Both the position numbers and the translations under genes were made by a program. Below the pieces are notes generated by a model. The model searched no databases. It was not told the DNA's origin and saw nothing but the letters and a program-made list of their open reading frames with translations. DNA of 64,000 nucleotides from Sipunculus nudus (taxonomy: Eukaryota > Annelida > Sipuncula > Golfingiida > Sipunculidae), in NCBI GenBank assembly GCA_026874595.1, contig CM049316.1, positions 11,088,839 through 11,152,838 of the forward strand, in the 5' to 3' direction. How positions within the stretch are numbered: position 1 is the stretch's first letter; each line of letters starts with the position of its first letter. Below, piece by piece: positions 1-62,620 of the stretch.

Positions 1-74
1 TTTCTCCGCGAAAATAAGCAAATGAAATTCACTGACCGTCAATCGAGACGTGAGTCTGATAAAGTGTACATTTG

Positions 75-119
<45 letters not shown>

Positions 120-1876
120 GATGATGTACTTTACACTGTAGACTCTCTCTATTCTATACTATGGGTTAGAATCATCTATATTATATTTTACGGTCATTAT
201 CTCGTTATTATGCAAGTCGTGCAAGTTTAGCCAAGGCACGGAAGTGTCCAATACATGATTTGATTTATCGGGTAAATTTGATATCACTAGTGTCAGGAAA
301 TGAATATACACCGTACCTTGATCGATACTCTTAAGACTTGCAAAAAATGTAAGTTTTGTGAACAAGGCCATTTCCATTTCATATATGGTCCCCTCTTATG
401 ACAGGTTACATGTCATAATGAAAGCATCGGGCTGACACTGAGCTGTTCTTCACATGTTTTAAAACTAGAATTCCCTCGTAAATAACTCTTAGAAAAACCG
501 TCATTGGACAGGGCGGTGGATGAACCAAGCAGTGTGTATGAAGGATTTATATTGATTTTAACCATATGAGGTCCTTTGATATATAGTCAATAAGAGCTTC
601 CATCCTTTTGCAAAAATATATTCCTGAAGGAGTTTTGACAATCATTACAGTAGCCACACGCAACAGCTGATGAACCAAGCTTCAATTTCAGACAAAATAC
701 TTTTTTCATTCTTTTTTTTTTAATCAATACTTTCATCTGTTTGGATGGGATTCGGGTGCTTTTTCTAGGAATTTATACAATGGTGTACGCATGGCTCAGC
801 ATCTTTCAAACACGATAAAAAAAAAACACAAATACTTTTGACAAAATGGCAACAGTATTTATCTTAATAAAAATTTAAGGCAGTGACTTTCACTGTTTTT
901 CTTTTTCTTGCCAATTATGAGAGTCCTTCCGACTCTTTATGTTGCTTTTGAGGTGTCCTGACATATAATGATTGGATAATTTTTTTAATAAGCAGCATAT
1001 AGTACTTATTTTCAAATATTCATTTAGAATGTAAAAAATACATCAAAACCTGGAGAAAACTGAGCCTTTGTTATGGGAAGTTTGTATGGTCCCAGGAATA
1101 ATTACCAAGAAGCACGTGCTGAGCAAGAAAGAATTCTTGCTGAAATTTCTTGTCACATTGTAGCGCATTAAATAAACGCATGGTATGTACAGGTGACTTG
1201 TCGGGCGGACTGTAAAAAAGTCTCTAAGAATTATGATTTCGATATGGCTGATGCAGATTCATGAAGTATAAAAGCCACTCGTATCTGAGATATGCATTAA
1301 TAAAAATGACAGAGTTGTTACGTATCCTTTGATTAGTTTGGATTTTAATGGCATCGACAGGTGTTGAGGAATCTTCATTCAGGTTTGCAGATTCAATTCT
1401 TCAATTCGAATCAGGGACTAGTCTACCCTTCTGGTATGCGTAACATCATTAATTCAACTTTGTATTATCATAGAGAATCCTAAAAATATATTAAAAATGG
1501 TATGTCAAGGGTATTCTAATTGTTATCGTTTTATTACATTTTGAATAAACGATTAACCTGGAGACCCTCATATCTCTGCCTTATATGAAATTTAATCCTT
1601 TTTTTATTATTTCAGGTAGATTAGAGGTTCAATTTTCCCAGATCTATTCCTTATACAGACAGAAAATGTTAAAACGGATTTATAAGGATTCTGTAGAAAG
1701 GGATTACTGAATCTTAAAGGGCTATTTTTCAAATAGAAATCGTAATTTTTCCATTATATAGAACATTTGTAAAGAATTAACACTGATATGTTTTGCTTTA
1801 AATGAAGCAACAAGTCAACCGATGTGAAAATACAGAAACTTGAAAACAAATAAGACTGATTATTAACTACAACAAG
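1..1876. repeat. Tandem-array copy A, first part
   Basis: This stretch is collinear with 10147-13230 (copy B). Matching blocks are 1-80 with 10147-10240, 190-260 with 10330-10400, 415-545 with 10939-11070, 575-760 with 11105-11270, 905-970 with 11420-11480, 1085-1160 with 11995-12070, 1370-1450 with 12590-12680, and 1503-1660 with 12725-12895. Parts also recur in copy D (1503-1660 with 26590-26750) and copy C (661-730 with 19180-19250). By eye, identity is roughly 65-85% with many indels, so the duplication is old. I see no open frame that stays intact in both copies. A pyrimidine-rich run followed by CAG at about 1600-1616 resembles a 3' splice site and is kept in B, but copy D lacks it, so I do not call an exon. 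Orientation and order are seen directly; duplication as the cause is inferred. Confidence 0.75.
77..116. repeat. (TA)n microsatellite
   Basis: This is an uninterrupted dinucleotide run of about 20 repeats. The homologous position in copy B (about 10235-10250) has only a short AT-rich stretch, so the run expanded after the two copies separated. Confidence 0.97.
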
Positions 1877-4667
1877 TGACCCAGGGGTCATGACGCTCAG
1901 CTGACCAGGAAGACATTGACAAAAGTAATTTTATCTTCTGAATGTCAAATGTGAATGAAATACTTTTTCCAAACTTGACCTTTTGAATAAAATCATCCAA
2001 TATTCATTGGGGTACTATGGAGCTCTGTAGCATGAAGGATATGGGTAACAGACACCTATTTTCAAGGTTTACAAGATGACTTTTCAGGGGTCTCCCAGCA
2101 TGTCAAAAAATAAAATTCTAGGTCCAGTTATTATGATGTGTGCCCTGTTAACAGATGACCAAATGTTTATTCTGGGGGGTATTTCAAAGCCGCATAGGAT
2201 GAAGGATATTGGTAACAGAGATGTAATTTCAGGTGCACCAGGAGACTTTTCAGGGGCCTCCAAGCATATCAAGAAAGGAGATTCTAGGTCAAGTCATTAT
2301 AATTTGTGCTCTGTTAACAGATGACCAAATCTTTATTCTGGGGAGTACTTCGGAGCCCCAGAGCCTGAAGGATACGGGTAACAGAGACCTAATTTCAGGT
2401 TTCCAAGTTGTTTCATGGACCTCGCTGCATGTTAAGAAAGAAGATTCTAGGTCAAGTCATTATGATTTGTGCAAAGAACCATGGGGGAAAATGCATCAGT
2501 TGTTTGGATACTTGAGCTTTTGTATCAACTTTTCCTTTATTCAGGGGGGTACTTCGGAGCCCCATAGCATGAAGGATATGGGTAACAGAGACCTAATTTC
2601 AGATTTCCAAAGAGACTTTCCAAAGGCCTCCCTGCATGTCAAGAAAGAAGATTCTAGGTCCAGTCATTATGATTTGTGCCCTGTTATGTATGACCAAATC
2701 TTTATTCTGGGGGATACTTCAGAGCCCCATAGCTCACAGAATATGGGTAACAGGGACCTTATTTCGGGTTTCCATGTAGACCTTTTATGGGCTTCCCTGG
2801 AGGTGAGGACAGAAGATTCTAGGTCCAGTCATTATGATTTGTGCCCTGTTTACAGATGACCAAATGTTTAAAAATCACAAAAATTAGAGAAAAAAAATCG
2901 TAAAAAATAAAAAAAATATAGGTGGCGCCACCAATCCCTAGAAATTGATGAAACACTCCATGATCAATATCCATGCAAAGAATCGTGGTGATTAATGCAT
3001 TAGTTGTTCAGATACTTGAGCTTTTGTATTAAATTTTGCATTATTCTGGGGGGTACTTCAGAACCCCATAGCTCAAAGAATATAGGTCACAGTGACCTTA
3101 TTTCAGGTTTACAAGGAGAATTTCCATAGACCTCTCAGGATGTCAAGTAAGAAGGTTCCAGGTCTAGCGGTTAAGATTTTTGCCCTGTTAACAGACAGAC
3201 GCCTGTATGGCCGGACGGACGACGGACAAAAGGTGATCCCTATAGCTCAGATGACTTTCAGTCAGCTGAGTTAAAAATTGAAAAAATACAGGTGGCGTCA
3301 CCAGAATGCAGAAACTGATGAAACATTTCATGATCAATATCCATGCAAAGAATCATGGTGATCAATATAATAATTGTTCAGATACTTGAGCTTTTGTATC
3401 AAATTTTCCATTATTCTGGGGGGTACTTCGGAGCCCCATAGCTCAGAGGTTATGGGTAACAGAGACCTAATTTCAAGTTTTTAAGGGACTTTTCATGGGC
3501 CTCTCAGCATGTCAAGAGAGAAGATTCTAGGTCCAGTTGTTACGATTTGTGCCATGTTAACAGATGACCGCATCTTATGAGGTCTCAAAAATAGAGAAAA
3601 AAATTCGTAAAAATAAAAAAAATACAGGTGGCGCTACCATACTGCAGAAACTGATGACACATTCCATGATAAATATCCATGCAAAGAATCATGGTGATCA
3701 CTGCAATAGTTGTTTAGATACTTGAGCTTTTGTATCAAATTTTCCATTATTCTGGGGGGGGGGGGGTACTTCGGAGCCCCATAGCTCAAAGGTTATGGGT
3801 AACAGAGACATAATTTCAAGTTTCCAAAGAGACTTTTTATGGGTCTCCCTGCATGTAAAGAGAGAAGATTCTAGGTGTAGTAGTTACGATTTGTGCCCTG
3901 TTAACAAATGGCCGCATCTTAAGAGGTCTCAAAAATAGAGAAAAATATTGGTAAAAATCGAAAAAATACAGGTGGCGCCACCAGTCTGCAGAAGCTGATG
4001 AAACACTCCATGATCAATATCCATGCAAAGAATCATGGTGATCACTGCAATAGTTGTTTAGATACTTGAGCTTTTGTATCAAATTTTCCATTATTCTGGG
4101 GGGTACTTCGGAGCCCTATAGCTCAAAGGTTATGGGTAACAGAGACCTAATTTCAGGTTTCCAAAGAGACTTTTTATGGGCCTCCCTGCATGTAAAGAGA
4201 GAAGATTCTAGGTGTAGTCGTTACGATTTGTGCCCTGTTAACAAATGGCCGCATCTTAAAAGGTCTCAAAAATAGAGAAAAATATTGGTAAAAATCGAAA
4301 AAATACAGGTGGCGCCACCAGTCTGCAGAAACTGATGAAACACTCCATGATCAATATCCATGCAAAAAATCATGATGATCAATGCATTAGTTGTTCAGAT
4401 ACTTGAGCTTTTGTATCAAATTTTCCATTATTCTGGGGGGTACTTCGGAACCCCATAGCTCGAAGAATATAGGTCACAGTGACCTAATTTCAGGTTTACA
4501 AGGAGAAATTCCATAGACCTCCAAGGATGTCAAGTAAGAAGATTCCAGTTCTAGCGGTTACGATTTGTGCCCTGTTAACGGACAGACGGCCGGACGGCCG
4601 GACGGACGACGGACAAAAGGTGATCCCTATAGCTCAGATGACTTGCAGTCAGCTGAGCTAAAAATGG
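1877..4667. mobile_element. 2.8 kb insert with satellite array, bounded by an 11-bp inverted repeat
   Basis: Copies A and B align up to about 1876 (B 13233-13242) and resume at about 4668 (B 13243). B has no counterpart to the material between. Near the left edge is GCTCAGCTGAC (1895-1905) and near the right edge its exact reverse complement (4648-4658), giving an 11-bp terminal or subterminal inverted repeat. Between them lie about 100 bp of unique sequence and ten tandem satellite units. The right end carries a GACGG/CCGG-rich stretch (4581-4612) followed by a segment that also occurs inside the array at 3201-3272, so the array holds an internal copy of the element's own end. No transposase frame is visible, and I could not define a clean target duplication. 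It is most likely a non-autonomous TIR element with an expanded internal satellite. The superfamily is unknown. Confidence 0.65.
2009..4640. repeat. Ten-unit satellite array in 165-bp and about 338-bp forms
   Basis: Each unit opens with a G-rich TGGGGGGTACTTCGGAGCCC-type segment, then GGTAACAGAGACCTAATTTC, then GATTCTAGGTCCAGT and GTGCCCTGTTAACAGATGAC. Units start near 2009, 2173, 2338, 2542, 2708, 3047, 3417, 3753, 4097 and 4434. The first four are 164-204 bp long. The later complete units are 336-370 bp because they add about 170 bp containing an A-rich run, the palindrome GGTGGCGCCACC, and a segment ending in a stretch that reads TTGAGCTTTTGTATC. The third unit carries only the end of that extra segment. 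A 13-base G run (3754-3766) starts the eighth unit. Open frames within the array (for example 2233-2859) follow the repeat and are not evidence of coding. Confidence 0.93.
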
Positions 4668-5520
4668 TCGGTTTGTGTGGTAAAAGAGAAATTCCAGAAC
4701 TTTCCCTAACCATAAGCAAAACTATTTTTGCCGCCTTCTTTGTTTCTCAATCCTTCATCGGAGCATGTTATAGGACAAATAAATGATTACCTTGTGATAA
4801 AAAAATCGACTTGTCTGGATGCAAGCAAAGCCCAAGTAACCCCATGGTAGGTGAATGTATCATATGTATGACATAGATTAAAGGTTTATCGTACAACAGC
4901 ATTATTGGCCAAAGACATATCTTACTACATAAGCCACAGACAACATTTCCATGAACTGCAGAAATCTCTACAACTGTTTTAAATTTTCTTAAAGGATATG
5001 TGAAAGACCCGTTTGTGACGCTGCCTACTGACTGAATATTAATGTATACATACAAAAAGAATGGTAAGGTATTTTAGCCTACTGGATTTCAAGTTTACAT
5101 GGATAACCCAGAAGTCCGGCACATAGTCCCGATTCAGGAATGTCATCAAGGAATTGTCATTAATCTGCAGTAACTTACGCCAAATAAGTGAATCATGGAG
5201 GCTTGCATTCATTGGATGGCAGATTTCTTGTCTATAATTTGATTCGTATTCCGATATTTGCCGAAATATACATTTGTTGAAGGATATGGCTGATTATCTT
5301 TGTTAACTAATTGTCACACTGGGACATGATGAAATGATCATTCCATACTATCATGGATGTGAATTCAAAGGACAGAAGCCAGTACTGGTACCGTCAATGG
5401 TTCACATATTTAGTTTATTTAGTTACAGGCAGATGTCGCTCATCGTAATGAATCTCCCGAATCCACGAGACATGGCCACCTGACCGCGGCAGTCACTGTC
5501 ATCGACCGTTTCATAAGGGT
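4668..5520. repeat. Tandem-array copy A, second part
   Basis: After the insert, homology to other copies resumes. Blocks 4680-4750 match 13252-13320 in B and 27526-27590 in D. Block 4805-4850 matches 27680-27730 in D. Block 4990-5120 matches 27950-28080 in D, both ending in a segment reading ATTTCAAG/ATTTCAGG followed by a shared CAGAAGTC motif. Block 5460-5515 matches 13498-13555 in B (both share ACCGCGGCA). No frame stays open across the copies. Confidence 0.65.
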
Positions 5521-8500
5521 TAAATAATAACATAATGGAAACATACATAGCATTAAAGGAATTTAAACCGCACTCCGATGTTTTACTTTTTATGCCCCAT
5601 TATGATGTTTATATTGCAGTGACTTTAAAATAGTTTAAAATAGCTCATGTGAGGTTAATCATGTGAGTGATTCCAGGCCATCATAAAAATCAACATGGCA
5701 GATTCACTTACAGATCTGAGAATACGTACTCTTACGAATATGATGTCGAATGGAAAATCTGTATTTGAAATAGTGAAACAATTTGGTCCCAGCTGTATCA
5801 TGTCCGCTATTTTACAGGCGACTGTGAGCACTGTAAGCCCCTCCCCCGATTTCTTGGTTTGCGAATTATGCCAAAGTAAAAAATAAATAGAGTGTTACCC
5901 AGATCTATTACCTTTAACTACTGCTTTGTCCAGTGGTAAGTTTTGAAAATCAGATCTAGCGTAAACACGGACAGAAGGAAGATAAATGCAAAACGAGGAA
6001 AATGGAATCGATGGTTCTGTACTATAGGGGATCATTCGCAATAAATCGACCCATTATTAATACAGAAGTAAAATGCTCAACCTCCATAAACCTCCCTTCT
6101 GAAGGGATGGGGGTTGTAATTCCGTTACCGTGTTATTGTTTGTGTTTCAACCTTAATGATGTAGGAATGTCTCGCGAGTCCCGAGACCAGGAGTATGGCG
6201 TTCCATTAAAAGTTGTTTTCTATGTATTCCTCAGAACGGCCTTTTATTTAAAGTCTTCATGGAGAGCTCCATAAACCACGTCTTTCTATTTTTCTTACAG
6301 AAAACGCCCCTTTCAGACATTAATTGTTAAACAGCTAATAGACTGGTACCCAGCTCATTTACGTTCCCTTTTAATTATGACTTTGTTACGTTGTGATAAA
6401 ACAGACCTTTGTTATCAGCTAGTGGGGCACGAAGACGTTAAGATTTATTTTTATTTCCTGACATACTAGAAAGTAACTTTTGCCTGAAATGGGGCAAATG
6501 TGTTTGATAACAGACGCACATGGCCAAATACTGTCTGAAGGTGTATATACAACTTAAATAACTGATAAAAAACCAAGGAGTGGATGTGTTACCCCAATCT
6601 GTCCAAAAAGTAGCGCTTGGGTGGCAAGCCGCAGCTAATAAGCAAACGGAGACACCCAGAGACCAAAAGAATGGTGTGTAGGGTGCAGCTTTTTATTGAT
6701 TATTGCTTTAATACTTACGGGTCTCGTGATGTGTTTTGTCAGACAAATGCAGATGAAGAGATTCTACGTAAATCTGCACTTTGCAGTCAGGGGCGAATAG
6801 CAGATTTAATAATGCGTTGGAGGAGTTAAGGGGGTTGGGGTAGGTACAGGATAGGCGTAAGGAAGATGAAGTGTGTATTAAATACTTTTGTAAATTTAAG
6901 GCTGTAATTGTTTTTTTTTCTATATTAAGCGGTTAGTGTCCAATACGACATATTTTATGCTGGGAAAGGCAAAAGGCGAGGATGGGGGCGTCTCTTAATC
7001 TGCACTGCCTGCCTTTTTTATTTTTCGAAAACGGAATGACCTTATGGGAGTGATCAATGTGACATATAACCCCTAGCCTAGGGCGCCAAGTGGACTGTAT
7101 AACTTTTAGAATTGAACTGTTTCCAACAACAAAGATGCTTGTGTATCATGACTAAGATTTTTACTCACATAAAAAAACTAATTTACAGTTTAGACCATCA
7201 TTTAACCTCACACGTTTGTGCTGTGGAATTATCAATTTATTAATTCTAATCTGGCTCCAAAAGTATCATATCCAGGATTTTTCAATATACATATATAACG
7301 TTAACTGGAAATTGATGAATTAGTGTCTTGAGGGACAGATCGTAAAAACTTAAACAAGTGACGTAGAAATAGAAGCAAAAAATATTCAAATAGGAGTAAT
7401 CTTCCACCGAGATTTCATAATTAACCCCACAAGGTGTGCCAGAGATAATAATTTGATATTTTTTTTATAATAATGTTTGTGATTTACGGCATTTGTAAAA
7501 CACGATTTAGGCCTTTTAGGCAAAATAAACAAATTTAGTTAAAATAATCGACAAGCTTGAAGTCAGTGATGATGTAAGTGTCCTCTTATCGGTTAATCGA
7601 ACACCTGAACTCACAATGGTAATTTAACAGAGGAACGCAAATTCTAAAATACGATAGGCCAGCCTGCCACCTGGGACCCAAAAGGTTTAGGCCACATTTT
7701 TATTATTCACGTTTTCGATGTCGCTGAATGTCAGAGCGAGGTGTCTTATGTTTCGATAAACTGAGATTTGTTTCAAACCCAAAGGTGAAAATCGAGAAAT
7801 GTAACAGACCATTTTACCTGATTATATATCTAATGTTTATGTTTACCAGATTAGGTACAATTCACAATGTAACGTGATCCAATTATTTACCTGTATATTT
7901 GTAAAACATAAGAGCGGAATATATCTAAAAGGAGTCCACAGTGCGTAAGATTACGAATTATCGCACGGGATTACGGGGCACCCACCCATCCTGCCACCCA
8001 CAGCCTTCAAGAAACATCACGTCAGCTAGTTCTATTCGACATAGCGTCGTTTAAGTCTAAATGCAATAGTGTATGCTTTCACGTGTATGTAGATTTTTGT
8101 TTTATTTGCTTCTTAATGTTAGGATTCGAAGAAAAAACTGGCCATTGTCTTTTAGTCGCTGTTCCCAGGGTCCATCCGTCTTGGCCCTTTCTGTGCTTTT
8201 TCATAATGTCATCCTCCGTTTTGTCATCTCGTCGGCCGATATCAGCTGATCCGGCTTAAAAATGTCCCGTTTAAAAGCCAAGCCAGGAAACTAGACATGC
8301 TGCTTATTATAGTAAAATGTAGACGTAAAGGTCACTATTTCAGGTACCAGATGGCGAAGAGGAAAACCAAGATGCCCTAACAAAGACGGGAGTGATAGGC
8401 AGATTCCTCGACAGACTCTCGATGCATAACCGCTCAGCTTTATGATTTAAGAATACATGATGGGGACAGGTGCAAGGGGACAGGTAAATACCCAGGCGGA

Positions 8501-9730
8501 AAAAGGACACCGCAATATCGAAGAATAGGAGAAGCATTAACATTATAGGTAAACAGAATACACCTGATGTTGCAGAGTAAAGGTGGCATTAGTAAAGCAA
8601 AGTAAAGGAGTATGATGAATGTGTATTATACCCCTGTTTCAAATTGATGACAGCTTAAGCCCTAACTAGTGCCAATGACATACCACAAAATCTCCGGAAA
8701 TTCACTGAATTGGCAGCTGACGTCATATCAGACATTTATATGAATGATTAACCTATCGCTGCGTGAATATTTCATGAAACAAGTTGGCATGACGTCAATT
8801 ATGGCAGTTATAACAATTTACAACCATTGAGTCATGGCAAATGTCCCTCCATCAGAAAAGCTCATTTCAAGACTACAGCACATGTTCTCTCGTCTTATCA
8901 AAAGAAAAAGATTCGGATAATGCGTCATTGAAATTATCATTAACAAAGCGGGTAAATGGTCCGTAAGGGATGAAGACGGGCAAAACAGAGGGGGTGAAAG
9001 CCCGCGATTACGGGCCAAGTATATTATCTGTATTCTAACGAGGAATGGTACGTGACTATCCTAAAAATTAAAGAGTGAGGATAATATTTAAGTAAATATA
9101 ACTTAACGGCGTGTGTTTTGCAATAACTCATTTATATTCATTTCGATTGTCAAAACGATTATTTGATGACTCTATTAACAGATAATGGTATTTTGTGATA
9201 TTCTACCAGAGGAGGCTTCTCGATTTCTTCATGGTTTAGAACATGAAAAATGATATGGTGTAACATCAAAATCTAACAGTCATGTTTCAATTATTGATAT
9301 ATCTCCATTATATTGCTCCGTATTTCTTTCTGCTTTCATTTGCAGATACCACAAAAAATTAAACTCAGATTAAGTGACGTAACAGGGTCCTATATTATAA
9401 TTGTGATATGGATCAAAAAGAGATATGATGAACTTAATAACATTTATAAAGCTTGGGATATGATCCGACGAATTCCGACAGATGGAATAACATTAATAAC
9501 ATAGAGTTATGAAGCTGGATGATTAGATAGAAGTGTTATATAATTGCACGGGATCTGACAGATATAACAAAAGAAGACCGAGTATGTAGAGAGCCGTCAG
9601 GATATTGTCAGTCAACCTCCTTAGACACGTATTCAGTAAAACATATAACATGACCAGAGCTTGTAAATAAGAGTAAAATTTAAATTGTAATTCTAAAGCA
9701 TATCATCAATGATCTTCTCGAAAGGATGCA
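5521..9730. other. Interval without recognisable genes or repeats
   Basis: I see no array homology, TIR element or convincing coding region here. The longest open frames are at 6002-6274 (90 codons), 6617-6829 and 8340-8543, and none resembles a known domain. A short frame at 5695-5886 on the plus strand has a good start context and a segment resembling a helix-turn-helix; it is discussed as a finding only. Old array copies may have decayed beyond recognition here, since A and B start about 10.1 kb apart while the basic spacing elsewhere is near 3.5 kb. Confidence 0.5.
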
Positions 9731-10146
9731 AAGTTTGCCGACAGCCTCGTTTCTAAAATGTCAACGGAGCAACGTTTCGGGGCCAGTACATAAATAAAAT
9801 ACTAAGAGCAAGTGGGAGTATACAGGTCTATTCGGTATAATGAACATTTGGTTTTTTAGCCGAACATGTCTGCAAGCAAGACCGTCCGGTTTACCTCGCT
9901 GATTTTTCATGATAAATGATCTGTCCACAGCCCCTGGACGCCGAGCATTAAATAATAAACGTTCAGCGGGTCTCTCATACGGCTGTACATATACTTTTCC
10001 CTGGTTTAGTCTGCAGAATGAAGATAACATTTCCATCAGATTAGCTTTGATACATGACAAGCTTTCAGCGGTGAGTCACAACTAACAGGAGTTATGGTCA
10101 TGTTTCTAAACTTCCATTCTCTCAGATATATGCTGGATCCTTTAAA
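9731..10146. repeat. Array fragment preceding copy B
   Basis: This segment matches 21430-21740 in copy C. Shared pieces include ACCTCGCTGATTTTTCATGA-type sequence (about 9893), TCTCATACGGC/TCTCATGGGCC (about 9972 and 21577), the ATTCGGTA element and a final TTTCTMAACTTC piece (about 10105 and 21710). Shorter parts match 4805-4850 and 27680-27760. A minus-strand frame of 99 codons (9761-10060) spans the block, but the C copy is broken by stop codons in the same frame. Confidence 0.6.
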
Positions 10147-13100
10147 GTTTCTCCACGTAAATAAGCGAATAAAATTAAAATGACCGTCAATCGAGAGGTG
10201 CGTCTGATGAGGCTAATATAAAACTACATTTGTCATAAATATATTTATTATCATGTTCATCAAAAAGTAGGCTCTCCCTATTCAATGCCATGGGTAAATC
10301 ACATCTATTTTGTATTTGACGGTAACATAAATCGTTGTCATGCAAGTCGTGTAGGTTTAGCCAAGGCTCGGAAAGGCCCAATACATGATTTGATATGTCG
10401 GTAATGATGTTAAATGTGTTTTAAGGAGAGCCGTTTTCTGTAAATCAATGGGAATTTGACCCTTTAGGGGATATATGGTCGTGGGTATATCTCATCACCA
10501 TTTATCAGAAACTACGCTCGTGTATCATGCGGGTGAACTCATAAATATTTTTTGACAAAGATATTGCATGTTTTCCAGGAAGCTGATATCAAGCTTTTTC
10601 CGATCGATTAAAGAGCATCGTTTTCTTTATCCCTATCAAAAAGATTCAGTAAATAATGAACGGATATCGTAATGCATAAAAAGAAAGGGTGAAGTTAAAC
10701 GTCCGTTATATAGGGGATATAAATATCTACAGAGAGTGAGCATATTAATTTGCTTAAGTCAGGTAAACAACCGTTCTCTGCAAGTTGAAATAGGTTAAAT
10801 AGATATCACTCCTGCCAGGAAATGAATACAAACCGTACCTTGAACGATACTCTTAAGACTTGCAAAGAATTGTAAGTTTTGTGAACAAGGCCGTTTCTAT
10901 TTCATATATGATCCAATCGTATCACAGGTTACATGTCATAATGAAAGCACAGGGGTAACACTGAGCTGTCTTTCAAATGTTTTTAAAGTAGAATTACCTC
11001 GTAAATACCTCCTAGAATACCCGTCTTCTGACAGGGCAGTGGATGAAAACAGCAGTGTGTATGAAGGATTAATATGCATTTTAACCATATGATGTCCTTT
11101 GATATATAGTTAATAAGAGCTTTCATCCTTCTGCAAAAATATCTTCCTAAAGGAAATTTGTCAATCATCGACGCTGATACATCAAGCTTCAATTTCCGAC
11201 AAAATACCTTTTTCATTTTTTTTCCTTCCAATCGATACTTTTATCTGTATGGATGGCATTCGGAAATTTTTTTTCTAAGAATTTATACGATGGTATCCTC
11301 ATGGCTCAGCATCTTTCAAACATGGTATAAAAACACTTAAATACTTTTGAAAAAATAGCGAAAACTGTTATCGTAATCAAAGATTTAATACAGTGACTCT
11401 TACTGTTTTGCCTTTCCATGTCATTAAAGTGAGTCCTTTTGACTCTTTGTGTTGCTTTTGAGGTATTCAGATAAATAATGAATGGATAAGTTGTTTAATA
11501 AGCAGTATATAGTACTAATTGTCAAATTTTCATTCAAAATATAAAGGATGCATCAAAACCTGCAGACAACTGAGCCGTTATTATGTGAAGACAAACAATA
11601 AATATTCTGTTTCTTTTAATTTTTACTTCAACCTTGTATAAAGGCACACAATTTGTAAATAATTGATTATAAACATTGTATATACGACATATTTTCCCAT
11701 AAAAGGGAGTAGCTTCTTAAGAGAGTAAACCTGTTAGTACAGGTAAAATATGCAATTTATCAATGAGATGCATTAGATGGTATAATATGCCGGACCAACA
11801 ACTTCATGATCACTTTAAAAATAATAAAATAGATATTTTAACAATCTTTCAAGTTTCAAGTGATGATTTTCTTATTATAAATATTCAGCTTTCCTATTTC
11901 AGCTTTAACCAGCTGATATAGTTATCTGTTTATAGTTTTATAATATGAGTATTTTTTTATGGATCTGCATCTTAGCAAACAAGATGGTCGTTCCTTTGTT
12001 CCCTGGAATGATTACTAAGAAGCACTTGCTGAACAACAAACAATTCATGCTGGAATTCCTTGTCACATTTTTGCGCAAAAATAAACGCATGGTGTGAACA
12101 GGTGAATGCGTATACTTTTTCTTTAAAAAAAAACCAAAAAAAAAAACCAAAAGTAACATCGCTATTTGACCATGGGAGATTTATTTTACGAGAGGTGCTT
12201 AGGTAGGAAAGCAGGCTCATATGACTGCAGTTCAATAATCAAGGAAATTTCATGTAGAAGAAATGAAGAAGAGCTCACCCATATAATTGTACTTCAGTAT
12301 TTCGTAATGGTCGAACCTTTCCAAGCTGAATACTTTTGAAGTCTTCGTTAAAAAAAGTATATTGGTAAATGTTGAGGAAGAAAAATCGTAACGATTCATA
12401 TTTTGCGTTTTCGGCCTTCCGGTGAACTGTTATACGAGTCTCCCAAAATTCTGATTAATATGGCCGATGCAGAATCATGCAGTATAAAATCGAGCCACTG
12501 GTATCTGAGGTATGCATTAATAAAAAGTTGCCACTTTTCCTTTGATTCCTTTAGAGCTTTATGGCATAGGCAGGTTACGAGAAATCTTCATTTAGTTTTT
12601 CAGATTCGATTTTAAATGGGTTGATTTTAAATGGTTATATCGAATCAGGAACCCTACTGCCATGCGGCAACATCATTACTCATCTTTACTTTATCTTAGA
12701 TAATCCTAAAAATAAAATAAAATTTGGAAGTTTAGGATGTTCTAACGTGTTGTTGTTTTATCACATTTGAACAAACGATTCACCTGGATATGCCTCATAT
12801 CCCTGCCTTATATGAAATTTAGTACTTTTGATAATTTCAGGTAGATTAGAGGTTTAATTTTCCTTTGATTCATTCCGTACACAGACCTTAATCGTGTATG
12901 ATTCAATATTGCGTCCATTTATAAGATCTAATATTTTTGTTCTATTTTATTTTCGTCACAAATGTTTGTTCACTCCTTGAAGATATAACATTCGTGAAAA
13001 CGGTGAATAGTACTTATTCTGCGGGAAAGAGTTACTGTCCGCTGTCTTTCTTCAGTTTTAGACAACCGGACCCTAAACGGACAATATTTTAAATATTAAT

Positions 13101-13718
13101 CGCAATTTTTCCTTTATATAGAAAGTTTTCTAAAGAATAAACACTGATATTCCTTGCTTTTTAAGAAGCAACCAATCAACCGATGTTAAATATAGAAACA
13201 TAAAATAAAACTGAAAGGACTGATTATATATCACAAAACAAGGTTGCTCTGTGTGCTAAAAGAGAAATTCCAGAACATCCCTTACCATAATCAAAATTGT
13301 TTTCGCCGTCTTCTTTGTGTGTCTGAAGTGTCCCTTTAAATGCTAAAAGATCTCTCTGAGACAAGAATGCAAGTATAATCAGCTGTTTGTAACGTGTGCT
13401 GTAGATGATTCGACATGTCATATTACAGATTCAATTTTTAATGGGTTGATTTTTTCATGATTATATCGAATCAGGGACTAAATTACCTTACTGGTATGCG
13501 AGATTTGGCCATATCACCGCGGCACTCACTATCATTGGCCGTTTCATAACGTCTTCTGTGACACAAGAATTAAGTAAAAGAGTAGAATGTAACGGATTAG
13601 GTAAGAAAATAGAGTGGATCGCACGAGTAAGCTTTGTCAGTTGACCCGAGAATGGTAGTTACGTTAACTTCTTTCTTTTTCTTCGTTCGCATGCAGAGGA
13701 ACAAACCAGATATATATA
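10147..13718. repeat. Tandem-array copy B, first part
   Basis: This is the collinear partner of copy A (see the first entry for block pairs). It also matches copy C: the 11440-11480 block pairs with 19425-19460, 11750-11910 with 21040-21190, and 13310-13410 with 22140-22240 and 28229-28330, the last set sharing GTGTGTCTGAAGTGTCCC or a close variant. Near its end, 13575-13665 matches 29675-29740 of copy D (both contain ATCGCACGAGTA). The motif with GGGTTGATTTT and TATATCGAATCAGG occurs twice (about 12613-12650 and 13441-13480), so B seems to hold parts of two basic units. I see no supported gene. Confidence 0.72.
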
Positions 13719-13720
13719 TA

Positions 13721-14656: not shown

Positions 14657-14711
<55 letters not shown>
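14657..14711. repeat. (TA)n microsatellite abutting the transposon end
   Basis: About 27 TA repeats with one extra A near the start directly follow the right terminus of the preceding element. The left terminus also follows a short TA run (13711-13720). The element therefore either inserted into a TA tract or its TA duplication seeded the expansion. Confidence 0.95.
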
Positions 14712-14713
<2 letters not shown>

Positions 14714-14828
14714 GTGAGCGTTTATTGACACATACAGATACAATTACATTTGTCCTGCAAAAAGCCTCTCCGATAAAAAGAAGTCTCTTCATAGGTTCTA
14801 TGTCATTATAAATCACGTTGGTAAAAAC

Positions 14829-18215: not shown

Positions 18216-18481
18216 GATCGCTTATAAATATATAAATTGTTCAAGACTGTTGGTTCTTCGTATTTCGTTTTAAATAATTTTGATATATTATAAATATGTT
18301 TACATTTATTCCATTAGATTTTAATTTCTTTACTGTCTTGACCGTCGAGTGTTACATGTCATTGGAATAATAACTGACTTTTCTAATGTTTTGGTATTGC
18401 ATTAACAATACCATAATATTCAATAAAAGTTATGCTTATCTTAAAATTCTGTTTCAAATGCTCTATTGATAGGATGGCTCA

Positions 18482-20114: not shown

Positions 20115-20168
<54 letters not shown>

Positions 20169-24848: not shown

Positions 24849-24890
<42 letters not shown>

Positions 24891-35352: not shown

Positions 35353-35437
35353 CCATTTCAATGCCAAATATAGCCACAAAAGCATTTTTCTACAAATGAA
35401 GGCAAATACCCCATTTTATATGATACTTGGTCGATTG

Positions 35438-49405: not shown

Positions 49406-49465
<60 letters not shown>

Positions 49466-52270: not shown

Positions 52271-55200
52271 TAGAAATTATTCGCCGAACGAAATTGATTT
52301 AGTAGTCCGCTGAAAGATTCCAGCAAAATAATACAAGGTTATAGATTCATTATTGTTGTATTTTGCAAGCTTAATTAATATTGAATTGCGTGTTTCATTA
52401 GAATGCTTAAGTAAGCCACCAGGATATATTCATTGTGAAATACATCATTATTTCAAACGTTATCTCAGCAGCAGTAAGTGGTGAGTCTTTAGTGTATGAT
52501 GGAACCAACACATATTGCGGCACCTCTGGACACCGGTTGGCAGCACCTCTCTGGACAACATCGGGCGCTATTTGTCTCCAACTGGCGGCTTGCTGGATTC
52601 TGGACTCTACACGCTCCACAGACTGTCCTCACAGCGGCCCTCTTAAATATACTTCTACCCTGGAAGCTCATTTATATTCATAAGACTAATACAAAGCCTG
52701 GGACTGCTTCGTTACTAATCAAAAGTGCACTGAATACTAAATAGTTGGAAACAATGTTCCTGCTACAAAAGTATACATCGAAGCGGCGAACTGGGTGACC
52801 ACTTTTGAATGTCCCATTGTCTCATAACACAATGACCCTGACCGGCGACCCTAGCCTACTTGCAACACATACAAGGATACAGCTAACCCGAGAAATAATA
52901 ATAAAAAAAAACATGATTAACAGAACGACATGATTCATTTCATGACAAACATGCATATATAAGCTACAGGTGACACCGCTTATGATAGACAAAAGCTGAA
53001 GTGGTATTTTAGTTTGACTATATTATTGTATTTTTACAAATCCTCAAGCACAGTTTTGCATACAGTTTTTTTTACCTTTATTCATAAGACTGGAGATGTT
53101 CAAACTTAATTTTCAGAGGGCGAACACTTATTGAAAACCACAAATTATAATTATTGTAAGATTTTCTACAAATCCACTTTGAAGGAATCCCTATAAAGTG
53201 TAGAAAATATTAATCTAGAATGCAACAATAACTGAATGTTCTTAAAATCATGCATAAAATATACCGAACGAAATGTGCTCCAGGTAACATTCAATAGATC
53301 ACAACGCCTGATTCATCAATCTCTGTGTAAGATTGCGTCAGCATTCACTATGTCCTTGTCTATGGATTATCATAATACAAAGTACCATTTATTAAAACAC
53401 GCTCCTGAGCTGTAAACAATAGGTTAAGATAAAATAGGTAATGTAAGACACCATTGTTTACTATCTAGAAGTTTAATCTATATCTTTTTGTCTATATATT
53501 TGCAGGTGTTCCTTATCTACACTTGTGTTGGCAAAGGAATCATGTCAAAGTGAAACTAATACCATTCCGTTATCGAAAGCTTCTCTGTGTTTTTAATAGC
53601 TGGGACTCATATACAAAAACGGTGGGCGCTCTCATAAGGCTTGGCACCCTACATTGAAGTACTGCTGACACAACAACCTGCATTTGTCTGGATAGTCATA
53701 CTGGCATACTGCACAAACAAAATTGATGATAATATGGGTGCCTTAAAAATAATTTATATTTCAGTTATTTAACATATATTTAAATACAAATGCACACATA
53801 AACATGTAGTTCACCAGTTTTTTTTAATATTTATTTAAAAAGAGAACAATTCACAGAAACCTTTTGAAAATACATGTATATTCAAAAATGGATCCATACT
53901 ACCTATTGTTTGCAATGCATGCGCAGTTAAAAAAAATACATACTTTATGATATTCGTTCAAAGAAGGATATTCTTAGCCTTTACTACACGGTTCCTTTAT
54001 ATTGGAATTCTAAGCCGCTGGTCGCAGACTTAAAAATGTGAGAGGACTGAAAAGGCACTGGATTCATTGGTATTCAAGAGACGGGTTTGTCTACTTTCTT
54101 TGAGCTAACATTTGCGTTCACCAGTATTTCCGGTGGATATACACGTCATCTGATTCCGTAAATAACAAGATAGAGAGTTCTTTTACAACTTGTCACGGTC
54201 TAGGATCTCTCATGTCGTCCAGTAGATCGCTTTCTGCAATCTAAGAAAAGAAAAAAAAGGTCCTTGAGGGTATTATAATAACCCGCGTGGTTCCTTCTTG
54301 AGCTCTTTTCCCGATGTAAACGTCCCACAGGGCACTCAGAGTGTCGTGCTCTAACAAGGTTTAAGATGGAACCTGTGTTGTGAAAGGGTGTCCCGATAGA
54401 TATATCTTTTATCATGCTATTTTATCATGCTGGTGCAATTTATGTTTGTAAAACGTTTCTGATAGTACTTGTCATCACACTTGTCATCGTGATAAATTAT
54501 AGTGTTAAGCAAGAACTAAAGATTATAATATTGGTACCCTGAACAGCAAACTCAATAAACAATGCAAAGGCCAACAGGATCCAGTTACGATCGATACGCA
54601 AAGTTTCCGACACACAAATGTGTACAACATGGAGCTCAAACGAAGGTTGGAGGGTGTGATTGCTCATTACGGGACTGGTCGAGATACATCTCGTCACAGT
54701 GGAGTGATTGTGTGATTTTGTTCAGTTTATCCAATGGTCTGTCTCATATGTAACACAAATTAGTCTAAACAGAGAAAACACCTTAAAAAGATTAAAAGCT
54801 GTTATATCGGTAACACACACACACACAAATAATACCAATACCTTACCAGTGCCCTCAATAAACCATATATATTCTGAAAGTTTATTTAATGTAAATGTCA
54901 GCGCCCATGCGTCACAGGTGTTTGTTGTATCAACATGTAAATCCCTAACAACAATCTAGAAAAAGGGTCTAGATTGTGACCTTATGGAACCGTGAATAAT
55001 TGAACCGTTCATCTTGTAAGCCAATCTATACGACGTGCGTATGAGGGTTAAAGGTAAATTTAGCTCAATATGAGACATGGCTTTAGTTTTTCTTTGCAGA
55101 ATGAGTAATGCTTGCCTTTTGCCGGTTTACGAATTTCTAATTATCCCTCATGTCCTGTTACTTGAAAGATTAATCGTAAAAGATATAAAAACCATGTATC

Positions 55201-57039
55201 GCAAAGATCAGTCGTATTAAAATCGCTTTAACACTGGTTCAAAGTATACAGAACCACAATCAGCAGAAGATAGATATGAAGACACTACTTAATTATGTAT
55301 TCTTTTGTTTTCGGTGTATCTTTGTAGATGTCTGAAAAAGAATAATAAATAAACAAAAACTTGATAATCTGAAGGTGATAGAATTTTATCGACTTTCTGG
55401 TCCTCCACCTTTGCATGAAAATGTGATTACCAGTGGGGATACATAAAATGGAGAAAATTTGATATTGCTACATCAGGGTATACGTGAACGTCCACTGAGA
55501 GAATAACCTGGGAGTTTTACTTTGTAATCCGTGGTGCTGGACATAGAAGACGTCAGCTACAAGTTGAATCCTAGAAGTGGCTAATGAGGAAGAGGAATGG
55601 GGAGATGAATTATGAACCACATTGTTCGACTGAAGGCCGTCCCTGGAGTGGCGCATCCCTCTTGGATCAAACCCTGTGGTCTGGACGCCAGGTCACTATT
55701 GAGTTCCATGTTTAATCCAAGCAACCTGGATTTGCCAGACCCTTTGTCCTGTGTTACCAAGAACTAAAGAAGATCATGCAAAGACAATGGCTCATAACTG
55801 CTCCAGTCACTCGTTTTACCCTATATAAAGGAATTACATTCGAGAATCTCCGAGGGCTGTTTATCATATCTTCAGGATCGTGGCTGTTGTCCCTCCAAAC
55901 AAGAAAATATGGACTTATGGATCTGTTACCAGTATCGTCGGTGGACATGCTATGTACTTCTGTGGAAAACATCAATTTATATATCATGAATAACCACTGA
56001 ATGGGACTTATTTATTGTGAATTACTATATATTATTAATCCTTGAGTTAATCCTATATATTATTATGTGTTATTGTACATGATGTATATAATACCATGTT
56101 TAAGGTAAACAGAGCACCTTTATACCACATAAAACGTATTAAATAACCTGTGAGGATACTTGTCAGGTTTGCCGCATGAATGAGGACCGTTACAACATTC
56201 TTCATTGTAAAGCAAATGGTATAAAGTTTTGCAGATAATAATGCAACCAACCATACAAACATACTCCGACTGCGTTTTTTAAGATTTTTTTAAAATATAT
56301 TTTTATTCATTCCGCTAATAAAATATACATCAAATAAACATAACATGTAATACAAACATAGAAACAATTAAAATTTAGGCACAATACATATATGGAAAAT
56401 TTAGTTTTATCCGAATGATTTCAAGAGACATAAACATATATAGAAAAATAATTTATTTCTATCTAACCGGCCATTTCATGATTAATATGAAACAATGACC
56501 ATCGTTTTCTAAAACATTCTAATTTCCTATTATTTCAGCTATTTCATCGTTAATTCTAACATAATCCCATAACATGTTTTCCCATAACTGTTTAGTTAAA
56601 CTATATTAATGTGCTAGAGGAACTACTTTTTTAACCAAGACAAAGCAAAATGTATTTTTAATTGACATGTGTATATAACAACATAGCAGTAATGATTTAC
56701 ATTAGACTTCTAATGTATGTAAAACAATTAATAATTAGTATTTCATTTGTAACTAGACATATCCTCTATATATGCTCTTATAATTCAATAATACTGACAC
56801 TTTTGACTTTTAATAAGATGTGGGAAACTCCCGCCATTGCTGCCGGACCGGATACGCACAACAATATCCTGCTTCTTGGTGTGACAGGATTAAGGTGTAA
56901 AGGGGGGAGTAGATTAAGATTAATGATACGAGTCTGGACAAAGGTTCAGTTTAAGAAAATTAGAAATACCGGAGATCTAGCCTTAACATGGACGAAAATG
57001 GGCGATAATGGAGAACCAGCAACGCTGTGTACAGACGAA
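52271..57039. other. Interval between copies G and H without recognisable genes
   Basis: I found no homology to the array. A GC-richer patch at about 52480-52640 is open in four frames (see findings). The minus frame at 54497-54697 has a hydrophobic stretch but nothing diagnostic. The plus frame at 56662-57057 (131 codons) starts in very AT-rich DNA and has no recognisable domain. A CA run occurs at about 54813-54826. Confidence 0.45.
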
Positions 57040-60000
57040 AGGTCGAGACAGAACTAACAGTTCACCAATTTGAACAAAACTGAGGACTCTGCATACCAAG
57101 TTTATAAGATCAAACTTATCAGTGAAGGGATCGATTTTGTTACGCCCTCTCGTTCTGTCATGTAACATTAAACTCTGACGTTTTGTGTCAAGCGCCCTGA
57201 TAAACATTCCTATAGCATTACTATTTTCTTTTTGCCTGTCCCAGATACGGAAAATAGACATAAGGGTTCTTTTAACCTCGTACCATAGATATAGTATGGT
57301 AGGTAGCATGGTAGGTAGCGTTAGGAACTGTCGATAGGAGTTACGTTTACGTTAAACAAAAATCATTTGCTTTTTAAAAGATTCCATACAAATAAGGAAA
57401 TGATGGTATTAATGCGAGGTACTAAAGATTTTTTTTTTATTCCTGAGATTGGTCATATAGGGTCTGTAACCAAGGACGATTTTTTTAATAGCTTGCGTCA
57501 GATATAGGCCCTTTGGTAGCAGGATTTTCATAACACATATTTATTAGCAATTGATGCAAATGTACCTTCTTGTGTCCTACTAAATATACCGTTGGCGACA
57601 TAAGAAGTATTTATTTTTTTCACCTTTTAGAATTGAAATTTTACACGGTTGGTGGATGCAGAACGCTTACCAGTCTCAAACCAGCCATGCCAAACAAGAT
57701 AAAGACGACTTTAACGGATGGTACTGAAGGTACACCTACTTGAATGCACAATATTCAGCCATTCGAATAGGATAACGTACGTAGGATAGGGATGCCACCA
57801 TGCATGCAACTAGACGAGAACCAAGTTTCCCATTGTCCACTAATATAAATCATTTCAGATGAAGACAAAAAAGGGGGGGGGGGTTACCTAGGAATCTGCA
57901 TAATGTATGAATTACAAGATGTTTTCATACAATAGTTGTATCTCATGAGAATAAAAGAAGGACTTTTTTAATATCCCCCTGATGTCTTCGGCACAAATCA
58001 ATTCGAGATTCGTTTTAAATCAATATTACATACACAAGGTATTGATATTCTTACCTCCAAATATATCTACTTATGAAATCATAATAAACCCTTATAAAAT
58101 ATATATATAAAAAAATTTCTTCCTTTTCATGTACACTATTTCCATCTTGCTTGAAAAAGTCCATTTCTTTATCTGACGTGAATTAAATACAGATAACATA
58201 TAAACCTTTCATAATAGTGCCTTTCCGTCGGCGCAAAGGTTGTCAGTTCTGTTCATATCCATCTTTAGGAAACGTTGTGGTGGTGGTGCTGATAATACAG
58301 CATACATATCCAAAAATACATCAGGAGGACAAATCAGACGAACCATAGTTGTGAAAATGGTACGAAATTTGTCCGAACAACAATTCAACCAATGTATATG
58401 AAGTCTACTACGTACGGCCATTTTTTTCAGTTTGTCACCATTTTTTATTTACCAATAACCTGGTTATAAGCAGGCTAGTACACCTGCACGGGGCGATATA
58501 AGAAAATTTCCTAGCGAGAATTAACTTGTTCATTACTTAGTAAAACGGAAAAGAGCACTTATCCATTTAAAATATACAACTATGGAAAGTGAATGTTGTC
58601 CATTGTCGGTTGTGTCATTGGTAATACAGAACGCTTTATTGAGAACAATCCGACGTTCGAACAATGAATCCGTTGTTCTAATTTCCTTTGACAGGTGGAA
58701 CGTTGGTAATATGGCGGCAGCATGTGTAAGTGGATAAGGTCATACTTACTTAACAAAAGCAATTATTTCAAACTTTTTAGATCTGTAGAGTGAATTAAGC
58801 TCTCTAGCAACAGTATTTACAAATATATGTTAGGATCACGTAAATTTATATCGTAACGTTCCTAGGTGGTATAACGGACGAATCAATTTTTGACAGACAG
58901 ACCGTTAGTTCACCTATGAACAGCTGTGTAACAGGTTTCTGATATATCTTTCACATCATTTTATCTGTGATATGTGACCTTTGTGTGAAAGTAACCCACT
59001 CTCTGGCATTTCTCTTCAGCTAATATGAATCCCTGTCACCACTTATAAATACATGCCATGTCTTTATATGACGAGGTACCAGGAGAAAAGTGTCATGTTG
59101 CATTTATTATAGTTCCAATACATTTTGACTTTCTTATAACGATGTGGTCGTGTTTAAATATGATTCTAACATCTCATGACGGCTACTTTAATATTGTCTG
59201 ACCTTCACCTGTGATGAGGTATCAAACTCAAGTAAAAGTGAAGTCATATACATCAACTAAAATGTCACATATACGTAATAAGGGGTTTCACTTAACGCCG
59301 ATGTCAGTGTTATAATAGGGGAAGGGTTTTCTAGTCGTGACACGTCACAGGTATATTTCGTTTTTACTGTGTCCAAGAGAAAGCACCAAGGTGTGATGTG
59401 CAAATACAGAAGATTCGAATTAAATAAAACAGGATTAAAGAAAAATGTATCCTCTCGTATATCTGACACTTAAGTATTTTGATTTCAAATACAAAAGTGG
59501 GGCGATGAGTGAAGGAGTGAATGTCTATCGGTACAATGTTCAAAAGAGGGTTTATCACTCAAAGTCACCAGATATTTTCATAAACGCTCATATTGTACAC
59601 TATAACGCTTAAGAGAACTATGAGTAAAATTTAAAATATGAAACAAGGGACACATTCTATCTACACCGTGAACTAGGCTGAAAAGAACGCATGATATTTG
59701 GCAAATTTATTATATAAACGTGAATGTCAGGAAAATGTTGTGGATAGATTTTAGTAAAAATATGTAAAAAAGCTTTCTGATTGAAGATGCAGAGTGAGCC
59801 TGTCTGACTATCGAGTTGGTATGCTGGTATGTATGGGTTGGGCATGACAACAGCTGATGTTTGCCCATACCGGACTTTTAATCAAATTAGGATGGTATTG
59901 TGGGGATTCCTGTTATGGCATGTGGCAGGTTCCATCATAATCGGCGTCATTCATTCGGAAACTTGAGGAGGGGAACTTGTGTGGTCAGTATCAGGGCGGG

Positions 60001-60125
60001 TTGTCTCAGACCTACGATTGTGACAGTGCAACCATGTAATACTCGCATCTAGTAAAGAAGTGCCAGACGGACACAAACCGCAAAGTAGCCGGCAATAAAA
60101 CAAATAAAAATATTAATCAGTGTTA

Positions 60126-60682
60126 AGCCTGCCGCTCACTGATGATTTTTATATGCGACCAGTCACAGAAAGTCGGCGATCGTCTGCGACCGCTTGCGAC
60201 CGGCAGTCGGCGAGCAGTCAAAGACTAGAGTTCACGGTGTTTCCCGTTGTTTATAAAATTATGTAATTTGGAGATAATAAATTTGTGTAAGTACACATAA
60301 AATTGATAAAAAAACTTTCAAAATATCAGACACAATGCAAAATAACAGCTAAAGGCCAAGCCTATCTCTTTACATGCCCTTACGATTGGGGTATTCGGGC
60401 GGAGTCTGGTTGTACCGAAACAGTGTTTGGTTCGACATCCACATCAATTCATCTTCCTCTTCAGGAGACCGAAACGACTTATTTAGGGCGATGCCACAAA
60501 CCACACATACAAGTTCAGTCTGCAACAGATGATTGCGAGAGTCGCAAGGAATCGCAGGGGATTACCAAGGTTTTGCCACTTGCGATTTACAGGTGATTAT
60601 AATCGACGACCAGACGCAGCTCCCTTGCGATTTCAATCGTTTCACATTGCGTCGCAACAAAATCCCCAGTGGGCGGCAGGAT
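60126..60682. mobile_element. PIF/Harbinger-like non-autonomous element, 557 bp
   Basis: The left end reads AGCCTGCCGCTCACTG and the reverse complement of the right end reads ATCCTGCCGCCCACTG (14 of 16 identical). It is flanked by TTA on both sides (60123-60125 and 60683-60685). Copy G holds the unoccupied site with one TTA (50318-50320) in GCGTTAGGCTTC, where H reads GTGTTA, element, TTAGGCTTC. A TTA duplication is the hallmark of the PIF/Harbinger superfamily. The interior is rich in TGCGAC and CGGCGA motifs and has no transposase. The 97-codon frame at 60303-60596 lies within the element and I take it as chance. Confidence 0.87.
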
Positions 60683-62513
60683 TTAGGCTTCACACTTAAG
60701 GAATAAGACGGACATCGATACATCCACATACAAGGTTGGCAGACGCTAGGGAATTTAAAGGCAGTTATGGGCTCATAGTGACAAATATTCAGCGATCCAC
60801 TTATCCTAATATATCGACATTTTTTACTATTCATTCAACGCAACTCTTGTTTTAAATTATATATGCTTTCAAGATACATTGGACTTACGTCGTTAATGGT
60901 TAAGTATAAATGTCACGTTAAAGTGACCAAACATTAAAATAAATGAAAATAACTAAAATATAACTCGTAAAATTCTTGATTGGTGTAGTCTATCAAGAAC
61001 ATGTCCACAAAGCTTAGTTATGGCTGTGGTCTCTACTATGACGTAATATAATTTCGCGAGTACAAACGCCAATCTTCAAAAGATCCCATTTTTATAACCT
61101 TATCTAAATGTTTTATAATTTTCTGTACACTGCTTTAAAAAATGACGTTATTTGAATCAAATTTGAGAGAAGGAAAACGTTCTGAACAAATGTTAGATAA
61201 ACGATTTTCACTGAATAAACTTAACAGTTAACTAAGCTTATTTTTAAGGAATAAGGTACGGTTTTATTTCATTACTTATTCCTCTTCATCTTAAATATGT
61301 ACTTTGGATCTACACTCCATTCGCTGCTTATCTTTGCTTTACGTGATCCGAAATTTCAAATATGCATGGCATCTTTATTAAAGTACGTAAGTTTGACCTT
61401 TAGGAGCCGGACGACAGGGCAATATACTACCTTACTGATGCCAGAAAAATTACAGCGCCTCTCCACGACGCTCTAAATATTCTTGATAATAAGGAGGAAC
61501 TTGCCTATCTACAATATGCTGAGCCTTTTTTGATAAAAGGATCTCCATTTAGTTTCAGGAGAGACGGGGGCTGTTATATACACCATTAAATTACATGATG
61601 CTCTGGATGATTGTGATTTGTAATATTCTCTGGCTGAAGGTATTCTTATTACAACTGATTACTGACAAAAGATAGAATAAGAAAGCGGCCATCTGCAATT
61701 TAAAATATTAAGTAAAATATTTGGCCTTAACACTTAAATGGAAACGGCATATATTTGCGTTCAGAATGTTTAAGGTATGCATTTTGACGTTTCAACTGTT
61801 GGACAGATATTTTGCATGCAGTTCCAAGATTGCAAACGATTTTCACAGTTCCCTAAACATGTTCTTTGACAGAATTATTTGTTAGCGTGGACATAGGTCT
61901 TATCACTCTTATCACTCGACAGTTGTGGATTAAGAGGGGGTTACCCGCCGCTTACCATATAGAGAATTTAATTTGATCTGTCCTTTTACTGAATGACAGT
62001 AAGGATGACGCGTATTCTAACTCAGTTCGCTCTTAGATTTCGATTATTTAAACATTCAGATGCATGATTCTCGCAGGATGGAGGTACTTTAGACGTCAAC
62101 GGCACCTACATCTTTATGTTGCTTAGCAACTTAAGTCGACAAACTAGGTAATTTATTCTGTGATTAGCCGGATATGCTCCTGAAGAAAGACACAAAGCCA
62201 TGACTGGTGATCTTGGATATATTGAATTTAGCTAATTTCAGGAATTATTTTGTATATTGACTTTGATATATTTTGGTGCTTTGACTCAAGAAAGCAAATT
62301 ACGCCTAATGTCTGTATTAAATTGTTGGAAATTTCCGGGGCTGGTTGATTTGTGAACCATTATTTGAGAGACTCTCAGAAATATCATAATAAACACCACA
62401 GTTAAATGCCCCAAAACACCGCATACAGATCAGATAAGATGAAAGCGAAATCAAAGGAACTCTCTTTCAAGCTTTTTACTCTGGACCCGTATCATTTTGT
62501 TATGAACCTTGGG

Positions 62514-62547
62514 GTAAGACGGGACGTCCCGTAAGACGGGACGTCCC
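62514..62547. repeat. 17-bp tandem duplication with GGGACGTCCC palindrome
   Basis: Two perfect adjacent copies of GTAAGACGGGACGTCCC. The homologous place in copy G (about 52175-52190) has no duplication or palindrome, so it arose in H. Confidence 0.93.
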
Positions 62548-62620
62548 CCCTCTATTCTGATGTTACTGGATTTCATACATAGCCATGTCCAATTAGTCAA
62601 TAGCATTGCAGGACAAAATA

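Follow-up and report, generated by a model that had tools for sequence, protein, structure and literature searches.

The window analysed here is a stretch of 64,000 bases from the genome of the sipunculan worm Sipunculus nudus (1.43 Gb in 153 contigs), located on contig CM049316.1 (C11) at positions 11088839-11152838. For the analysis, 100 kb of flanking DNA was added on each side, and positions that are negative or lie beyond 64 kb are given in window coordinates. The locus is occupied by a tandem array of related segments that run in one orientation, with a G+C content of about 36%, and a minus-strand transglutaminase gene lies to the left of it. An old direct tandem array covering most of the window, with no visible gene in its unit, had originally been predicted from the letters of the window alone. 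Such an array is supported by matches that are both direct and collinear, but it extends further than predicted, with copies spanning roughly 145 kb, from about -36 to +109 kb.

Self-comparison of the window after masking of the minisatellite gave 75 direct and 3 inverted matches, compared with 0 direct and 0-1 inverted matches in each of five dinucleotide shuffles and two matches against the reversed sequence. In an all-against-all comparison of the window that included the minisatellite pairs, 89 matches at E<=0.01 were direct and 2 were inverted. At E<1, there were 99 direct and 22 inverted matches, and the direct ones covered 26,806 of the 64,000 bases within the window alone. The short landmarks on which the original prediction relied could be located as described. 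CAACAGCTGAT occurs on the plus strand at 661, 19181, 38306, 50042 and 59848 and nowhere on the minus strand (mean of 0.0 in 20 shuffles of the extended array), and 11 sites (8 plus, 3 minus) were found when one mismatch was allowed, against 2.5 expected. TCAGCAG has 10 plus-strand sites, among them 23032, 30591, 45380 and 50172, and one on the minus strand, and exact copies of GGGGCTGATGG lie at 16582 and 30636, with a diverged form at the homologous spot near 23073. The landmarks are not isolated, since matches chained between parts of the window are collinear. Moreover, iterated profiles of two unit segments, A and C, yielded 11 and 10 matches in the window, respectively, all direct. When the window-built profiles were applied to 190 kb, all 16 matches of A and all 24 of C were on the plus strand, and of these 5 and 14, respectively, lay beyond the window.

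When the known insertions were masked, coverage by direct copies of at least 100 bp was 0.00 at -50 to -40 kb and thinned rightward; unmasked, direct matches in the interval from -50 to -40 kb amounted to 749 bp and inverted ones to 389 bp. Most of the aligned array length shows 60-80% identity. The left part contains five copies of a block at distances of 9-12 kb, with 74-79% identity over the longest matches. Thus, 6937-10401 matches -3182..271 and 6217-9893 matches -12929..-9285 (74-77%), and 7402-12781 and 8080-13318 match -34891..-29549 and -22096..-16843, respectively (74-77%). On the right side, a tandem duplication of 6,251 bp at 67674-80179 (L013-L014) is 99.98% identical. The interval 49.6-50.4 kb matches inside this duplication at both 69.1 and 72.0 kb, so the duplicated segment probably holds two base units.

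For a description of the unit, the window was split into 15 stretches at borders derived from the matches, the unit borders being set by the authors (Table 1). The estimate of at least eight copies can be raised: about 12 copies of unit parts are present in the window, nine recognised as units by profile A, those at 49773 and 59582 by direct match and one at 45349 weakly. The shortest distances between units are 3.1-3.7 kb, in line with the predicted spacing of 3.2-3.7 kb. For example, the unit starts at 15783, 19122, 22202 and 25580 are separated by 3.1-3.4 kb, and the offset between U8 and U9 (36.8-39.0 kb versus 40.0-42.5 kb) is 3228-3568 bp. Some intervals are longer: 25580 and 29847 are 4.3 kb apart, and U12 (~4.4 kb) and U13 (~6.0 kb) are long with no insertion identified. 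A nested order of dimers and 9-12-kb blocks is superimposed on the simple spacing, and part of the irregularity is caused by insertions. Units of two types alternate: U1, U2, U4 and U6 belong to type I and U3, U5 and U7 to type II, and further to the right the matching pairs are U11-U13 and U12-U14. The neighbouring pairs U2-U3, U3-U4, U4-U5, U6-U7, U11-U12 and U12-U13 scored zero bits. Matches between next-but-one units, where most direct neighbours show none, indicate that duplication often proceeded by dimers.

Table 1. Units and related features of the array in the window (bits, scores of matches between stretches)
Feature	Position	Strand	Remarks
U1 (type I)	1..5560	+	8 blocks with 75-85% identity, collinear with 10148-13549; minisatellite-bearing insertion at ~1873-4660
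Remainder of 9-12-kb higher-order unit	5468..10147	+	Other copies left of the window
Best conserved block of higher-order unit	8150..8900	+	Four array copies at 76-84%; without coding signal
U2 (type I)	10148..15782	+	Contains MITE-like element 14843-15758
U3 (type II)	15783..19100	+	283 bits with U5, 455 with U7; 0 with neighbours U2 and U4
U4 (type I)	19101..22200	+	194 bits with U2, 196 with U6
U5 (type II)	22201..25560	+	283 bits with U3, 380 with U7; tRNA-SINE-like insertion at ~22450-22790
U6 (type I)	25561..29846	+	377 bits with U1, 471 with U2, 196 with U4
U7 (type II)	29847..36700	+	Split by a ~4.5-kb transposon relic at ~31196-35711
U8	36701..40014	+	36755-39000 matches 40015-42484 at 61-64%
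U9	40015..43300	+	557 bits with adjoining U8
U10 (weakly preserved)	43301..47138	+	45349-45421 matches 50141-50214 at 76%
U11	47139..50876	+	347 bits with U13; 0 with adjoining U12
U12	50877..55300	+	50877-52486 matches 61316-62868; copies also at 69-81 kb
U13	55301..61315	+	57074-57960 and 59582-60804 match U11
U14 (runs past window end)	61316..64000	+	373 bits with U12; 61875-63084 matches 80562-81748 at 72%

Several tests were directed at coding sequence in the array. A six-frame self-comparison gave its best translated matches in all frames and on both strands, and the codon periodicity of mismatches reached p<0.05 in 1 of 41 blocks (about 2 expected; best p 0.003). Lengths of insertions and deletions (indels) modulo 3 were distributed as 104:432:190 and 88:323:124, i.e. 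they were mostly frame-breaking. In jointly open segments of at least 24 codons, the median ratio of nonsynonymous to synonymous substitution rates (dN/dS) was 0.81 (39 segments) and 0.82 (231 segments), and variable columns of the five-copy alignment at 8150-8500 fell on the three codon positions as 28:25:28. Pfam scans covered 320 of the 352 open reading frames (ORFs) of at least 52 amino acids in the window (the other 32 being mostly minisatellite and low-complexity), six-frame translations of the whole window (X at stops) and of -40..0 and +64..+84 kb, and 99 of the 276 flanking ORFs of at least 75 amino acids; a further 7 such ORFs cross locus borders. No convincing domain was found in the window ORFs, in the six frames or in the scanned array flanks. 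The matches in the window, namely Vps23_core (E 0.0013), PGAP1_3rd (0.0029), DUF6095 (0.0052), DUF7772 (0.0085), Pox_F15 (0.01), DUF2554 (0.012) and 6PGD (0.038), occur in a single member each, are about what chance would give with so many members and fall below the curated cut-off where one is given. The six-frame scan of the flanking array gave Bfc (0.042) and FcoT and DUF7026 (both 0.08).

These results bear on the possibility that the array is a tandem gene family, either living or in remains, whose very short or fast-evolving exons (e.g. those of small secreted peptides) would be separated by introns forming the visible repeat. Tandem arrays often form around genes, and in the transglutaminase paralogues at 57.8 Mb on C11 flanking or intronic DNA is held in common along with the exons. 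A few array segments also show low dN/dS values, the best p being 0.0004 among 231 segments and 0.001 among 39, although such p values are modest for so many overlapping tests. The same paralogues, which lie on the same chromosome as the array and match at 66-84% identity, were used as a positive control. The pair L028-L030 yielded a 71-codon segment with a dN/dS of 0.13 (p 5e-9) and L028-L029 a 73-codon segment with a dN/dS of 0.14 (p 9e-5). On the other hand, the test was weak for L029-L030 (best p 0.0027 over 33 codons; p 0.009 for the longest plus-strand segment, of 74 codons); L031-L030 gave no match, and L036-L037 duplicates the pair L029-L030. This mixed outcome implies that exons are detectable at such divergence in two of the three informative pairs, while an exon under weak constraint would not be conspicuous beside the best segments of the array. 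With codon periodicity lacking, indels mostly frame-breaking, no convincing domain in the sequences scanned and two control pairs clearly positive, a gene family appears unlikely, and the earlier suggestion that exons had been missed is not supported within the limited power of this test.

RNA structure and non-coding conservation were also investigated. A search against Rfam returned no family at gathering level, with 18 sub-threshold look-alikes of microRNAs at E<=5 located in AT runs or repeat arms. Consensus folding with RNAalifold covered three segments of the unit. Alignments A5 and A6 gave 0 pairs, and the conserved block (A11) gave 62 pairs, of which 1 had a double-sided change and 19 were broken in one of the five sequences, with an unfavourable covariation term of +2.44. 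Hence neither a known family nor a covarying structure was found on the segments tested, and the view that the unit is a non-coding RNA locus gained no support. In segment A, independent copy pairs had no conservation peaks in common: over five comparisons rho ranged from -0.24 to 0.29, and 18-90% of the shifted nulls equalled or exceeded the observed value (no columns were usable for the contrast 5 v 7). CTCF-like sites, defined by a consensus, occurred at chance level, with 7 sites at up to 2 mismatches versus 6.7 +- 2.9 expected and 82 at 3 mismatches versus 74.6 +- 8.4 expected. If an element has been retained, the mildly conserved interval 8180-8460 is, from alignment of its copies, the strongest candidate.

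This interval, together with the position of the array 5' of the transglutaminase gene, could point to a functional non-coding locus, such as a multi-copy long non-coding RNA, an enhancer or an architectural array, which might lie within the first intron or the 5' region of that gene. A precedent is DXZ4, whose 3-kb units form a non-coding array with a conserved role, as inferred by the authors of PMC3218863. The absence of common conservation peaks among independent pairs, of covarying RNA structure, of an Rfam family and of a CTCF-like excess in the tests described makes such a function improbable, as does the distance of about 16 kb between the array and the nearest detected exon. A more specific version, which we consider quite doubtful, is that of a selected non-coding array in which some units would keep a regulatory or architectural element (with 8180-8460 and its four copies as the candidate) and multi-unit duplications would raise its dosage 5' of transglutaminase; the array would then be the invertebrate equivalent of functional macrosatellites.

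The array has received insertions of transposons and minisatellites, but a dispersed repeat or transposon family clustering here by chance is very improbable and already contradicted, because the probes 8150-8900 (at least 5 genomic places, i.e. itself and four copies) and 22813-23141 (at least 2 places) were found only inside this array (5/5 and 2/2, the counts being lower bounds) and the profile matches keep one orientation and order. The confinement of both unit probes to this locus likewise speaks against membership of a known transposon family.

Taken together, the locus is most probably (probability about 0.7) a single-locus, macrosatellite-like tandem segmental array of a ~3.2-kb non-coding segment that has grown by local duplication and is decaying much like neutral DNA. 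Growth would have occurred through successive local head-to-tail duplications, brought about by unequal exchange or by slippage between copies already present, and two or more units may often have been copied together, which would produce the alternating types and larger blocks. Substitutions, indels and insertions would then erode each copy, largely in the manner of neutral DNA and with little homogenisation. The tests made revealed no coding or RNA-structure constraint, and there is so far no sign of a gene or of conserved function in the array. Unless it is an assembly artefact, the near identity of the two 6.25-kb copies points to a duplication process that is still going on, and it hints at a copy number that varies between individuals.

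A number of observations weigh against this macrosatellite-like reading. The low-dN/dS segments already mentioned are among them, and the control pair L029-L030 performed no better than the best segments of the array; the mixed control slightly lowers our confidence in a non-coding array and raises the odds of a short-exon gene family. Conservation is slightly clumped in the five-copy block, where the standard deviation of 50-column windows is 0.091 versus 0.068 expected, the best window (0.88 at 10027) equals the 95% shuffle limit, and 8280-8340 reaches 94% (60 bp) versus a mean of 79%. The neighbours U8 and U9 do match each other, which means that dimers do not account for all growth, and weak matches also exist between U5 and U6 (31 bits) and U13 and U14 (35 bits). 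Over 190 kb at E<=1e-4 there are 135 inverted matches (29,844 bp) beside 472 direct ones (205,730 bp), counts that include simple and dispersed repeats, and the window has 17 inverted and 182 direct matches with its flanks. The inverted matches are provisionally taken for dispersed elements and simple repeats. In addition, the 99.98% identical duplication could be an artefact of assembly rather than a very recent event.

Satellite higher-order repeats consist of alternating diverged monomers of nucleosome size that are multiplied as dimers or larger blocks. The array resembles them in its alternating diverged units and in the multiplication of dimers and larger blocks, but differs in its ~3.2-kb monomer, little homogenisation and no known centromeric setting. 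Macrosatellites, as described in PMC3218863, have tandem units of 2 to >12 kb at one or two places, with units of 3-3.3 kb in DXZ4 and D4Z4. The array shares with them large head-to-tail units within this range and, judging from two probes with lower-bound counts, a single location, and like DXZ4 it is not obviously coding. However, DXZ4 is called uninterrupted in PMC3218863 and homogenous in PMC3491370, whereas the copies here are mostly 60-80% identical and four kinds of insertions interrupt the array, which is why it is called macrosatellite-like rather than a macrosatellite. Unlike D4Z4 and DXZ4, it is also not G+C-rich and lacks CTCF enrichment. Adjoining direct copies of nested ages at one locus further liken it to tandem segmental duplications in duplication blocks, portrayed in PMC5880603 as local mosaics of older copies. 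The duplications described there are over 10 kb, in contrast to a base unit of ~3.2 kb that is present here in many copies with no gene seen. Since large non-coding units in tandem arrays are of a known kind, it was an overstatement to call the conserved order unusual. The value of the locus is that it displays, at one place, how a non-coding array may be assembled through multi-unit duplications (dimers, 9-12-kb blocks and a near-identical copy) and then decay, and it cautions that an order kept over tens of kilobases need not imply a hidden gene. Its importance would rise if expression or cross-species conservation revealed a function.

Several insertions were observed inside the array. The transposon relic in U7 carries long inverted terminal repeats composed of ~21-bp subrepeats (core GTGCGCACGA) and has a 6-bp direct repeat at its flanks. 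In U3 the order is uninterrupted, with 15783-17316 corresponding to 29847-31195 of U7 and 17311-18140 to 35711-36437. A minus-strand ORF of the relic (34825-35190) bears what we take to be a faint integrase-like resemblance, unconfirmed by Pfam: the 121-amino-acid frame within it had no match at E<=1. The element in U2, similar to a miniature inverted-repeat transposable element (MITE), has inverted arms built of GGGGGTAATTGTCC repeats. In U5, the piece resembling a short interspersed nuclear element (SINE) derived from transfer RNA (tRNA) was recognised by eye, and ARAGORN detected no tRNA. A further minisatellite, with a period of ~161 bp, lies in the left array part at -25084 to -23231 (L010). 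The insertion in U1 contains 166-bp and 337-bp minisatellites, whose repeats keep a 208-amino-acid frame open at 2233-2859, and it resembles the pearl-family elements of bivalves, which carry satellite-like repeats internally (PMC5139131).

Among the flanking ORFs, Pfam matches comprised RVT_1 in three, Transglut_N in two, endonuclease families, Transglut_C (E 0.0053) and six weaker ones. The transglutaminase gene was identified by the ORF L007:1465-1842, which matches transglutaminase structures with an E of 8e-21, by a weak match of L006:9122-9529 to the C-terminal part (E 0.003) and by two Transglut_N exons at C11:11036912-11037082 and C11:11035914-11036093. In window coordinates, the Transglut_N pieces lie at -51.9 and -52.9 kb, the core at -58 kb and the C-terminal part at -60.5 kb. 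On the right side, only reverse-transcriptase and endonuclease types stood out among the scanned ORFs within 100 kb, at +87-89 and +150-155 kb (placed by eye). Additional transglutaminase N-domain exons are found elsewhere on C11, at 19.92 Mb, at 60.65 Mb and at 57.78-57.86 Mb, where they form an apparent tandem cluster.

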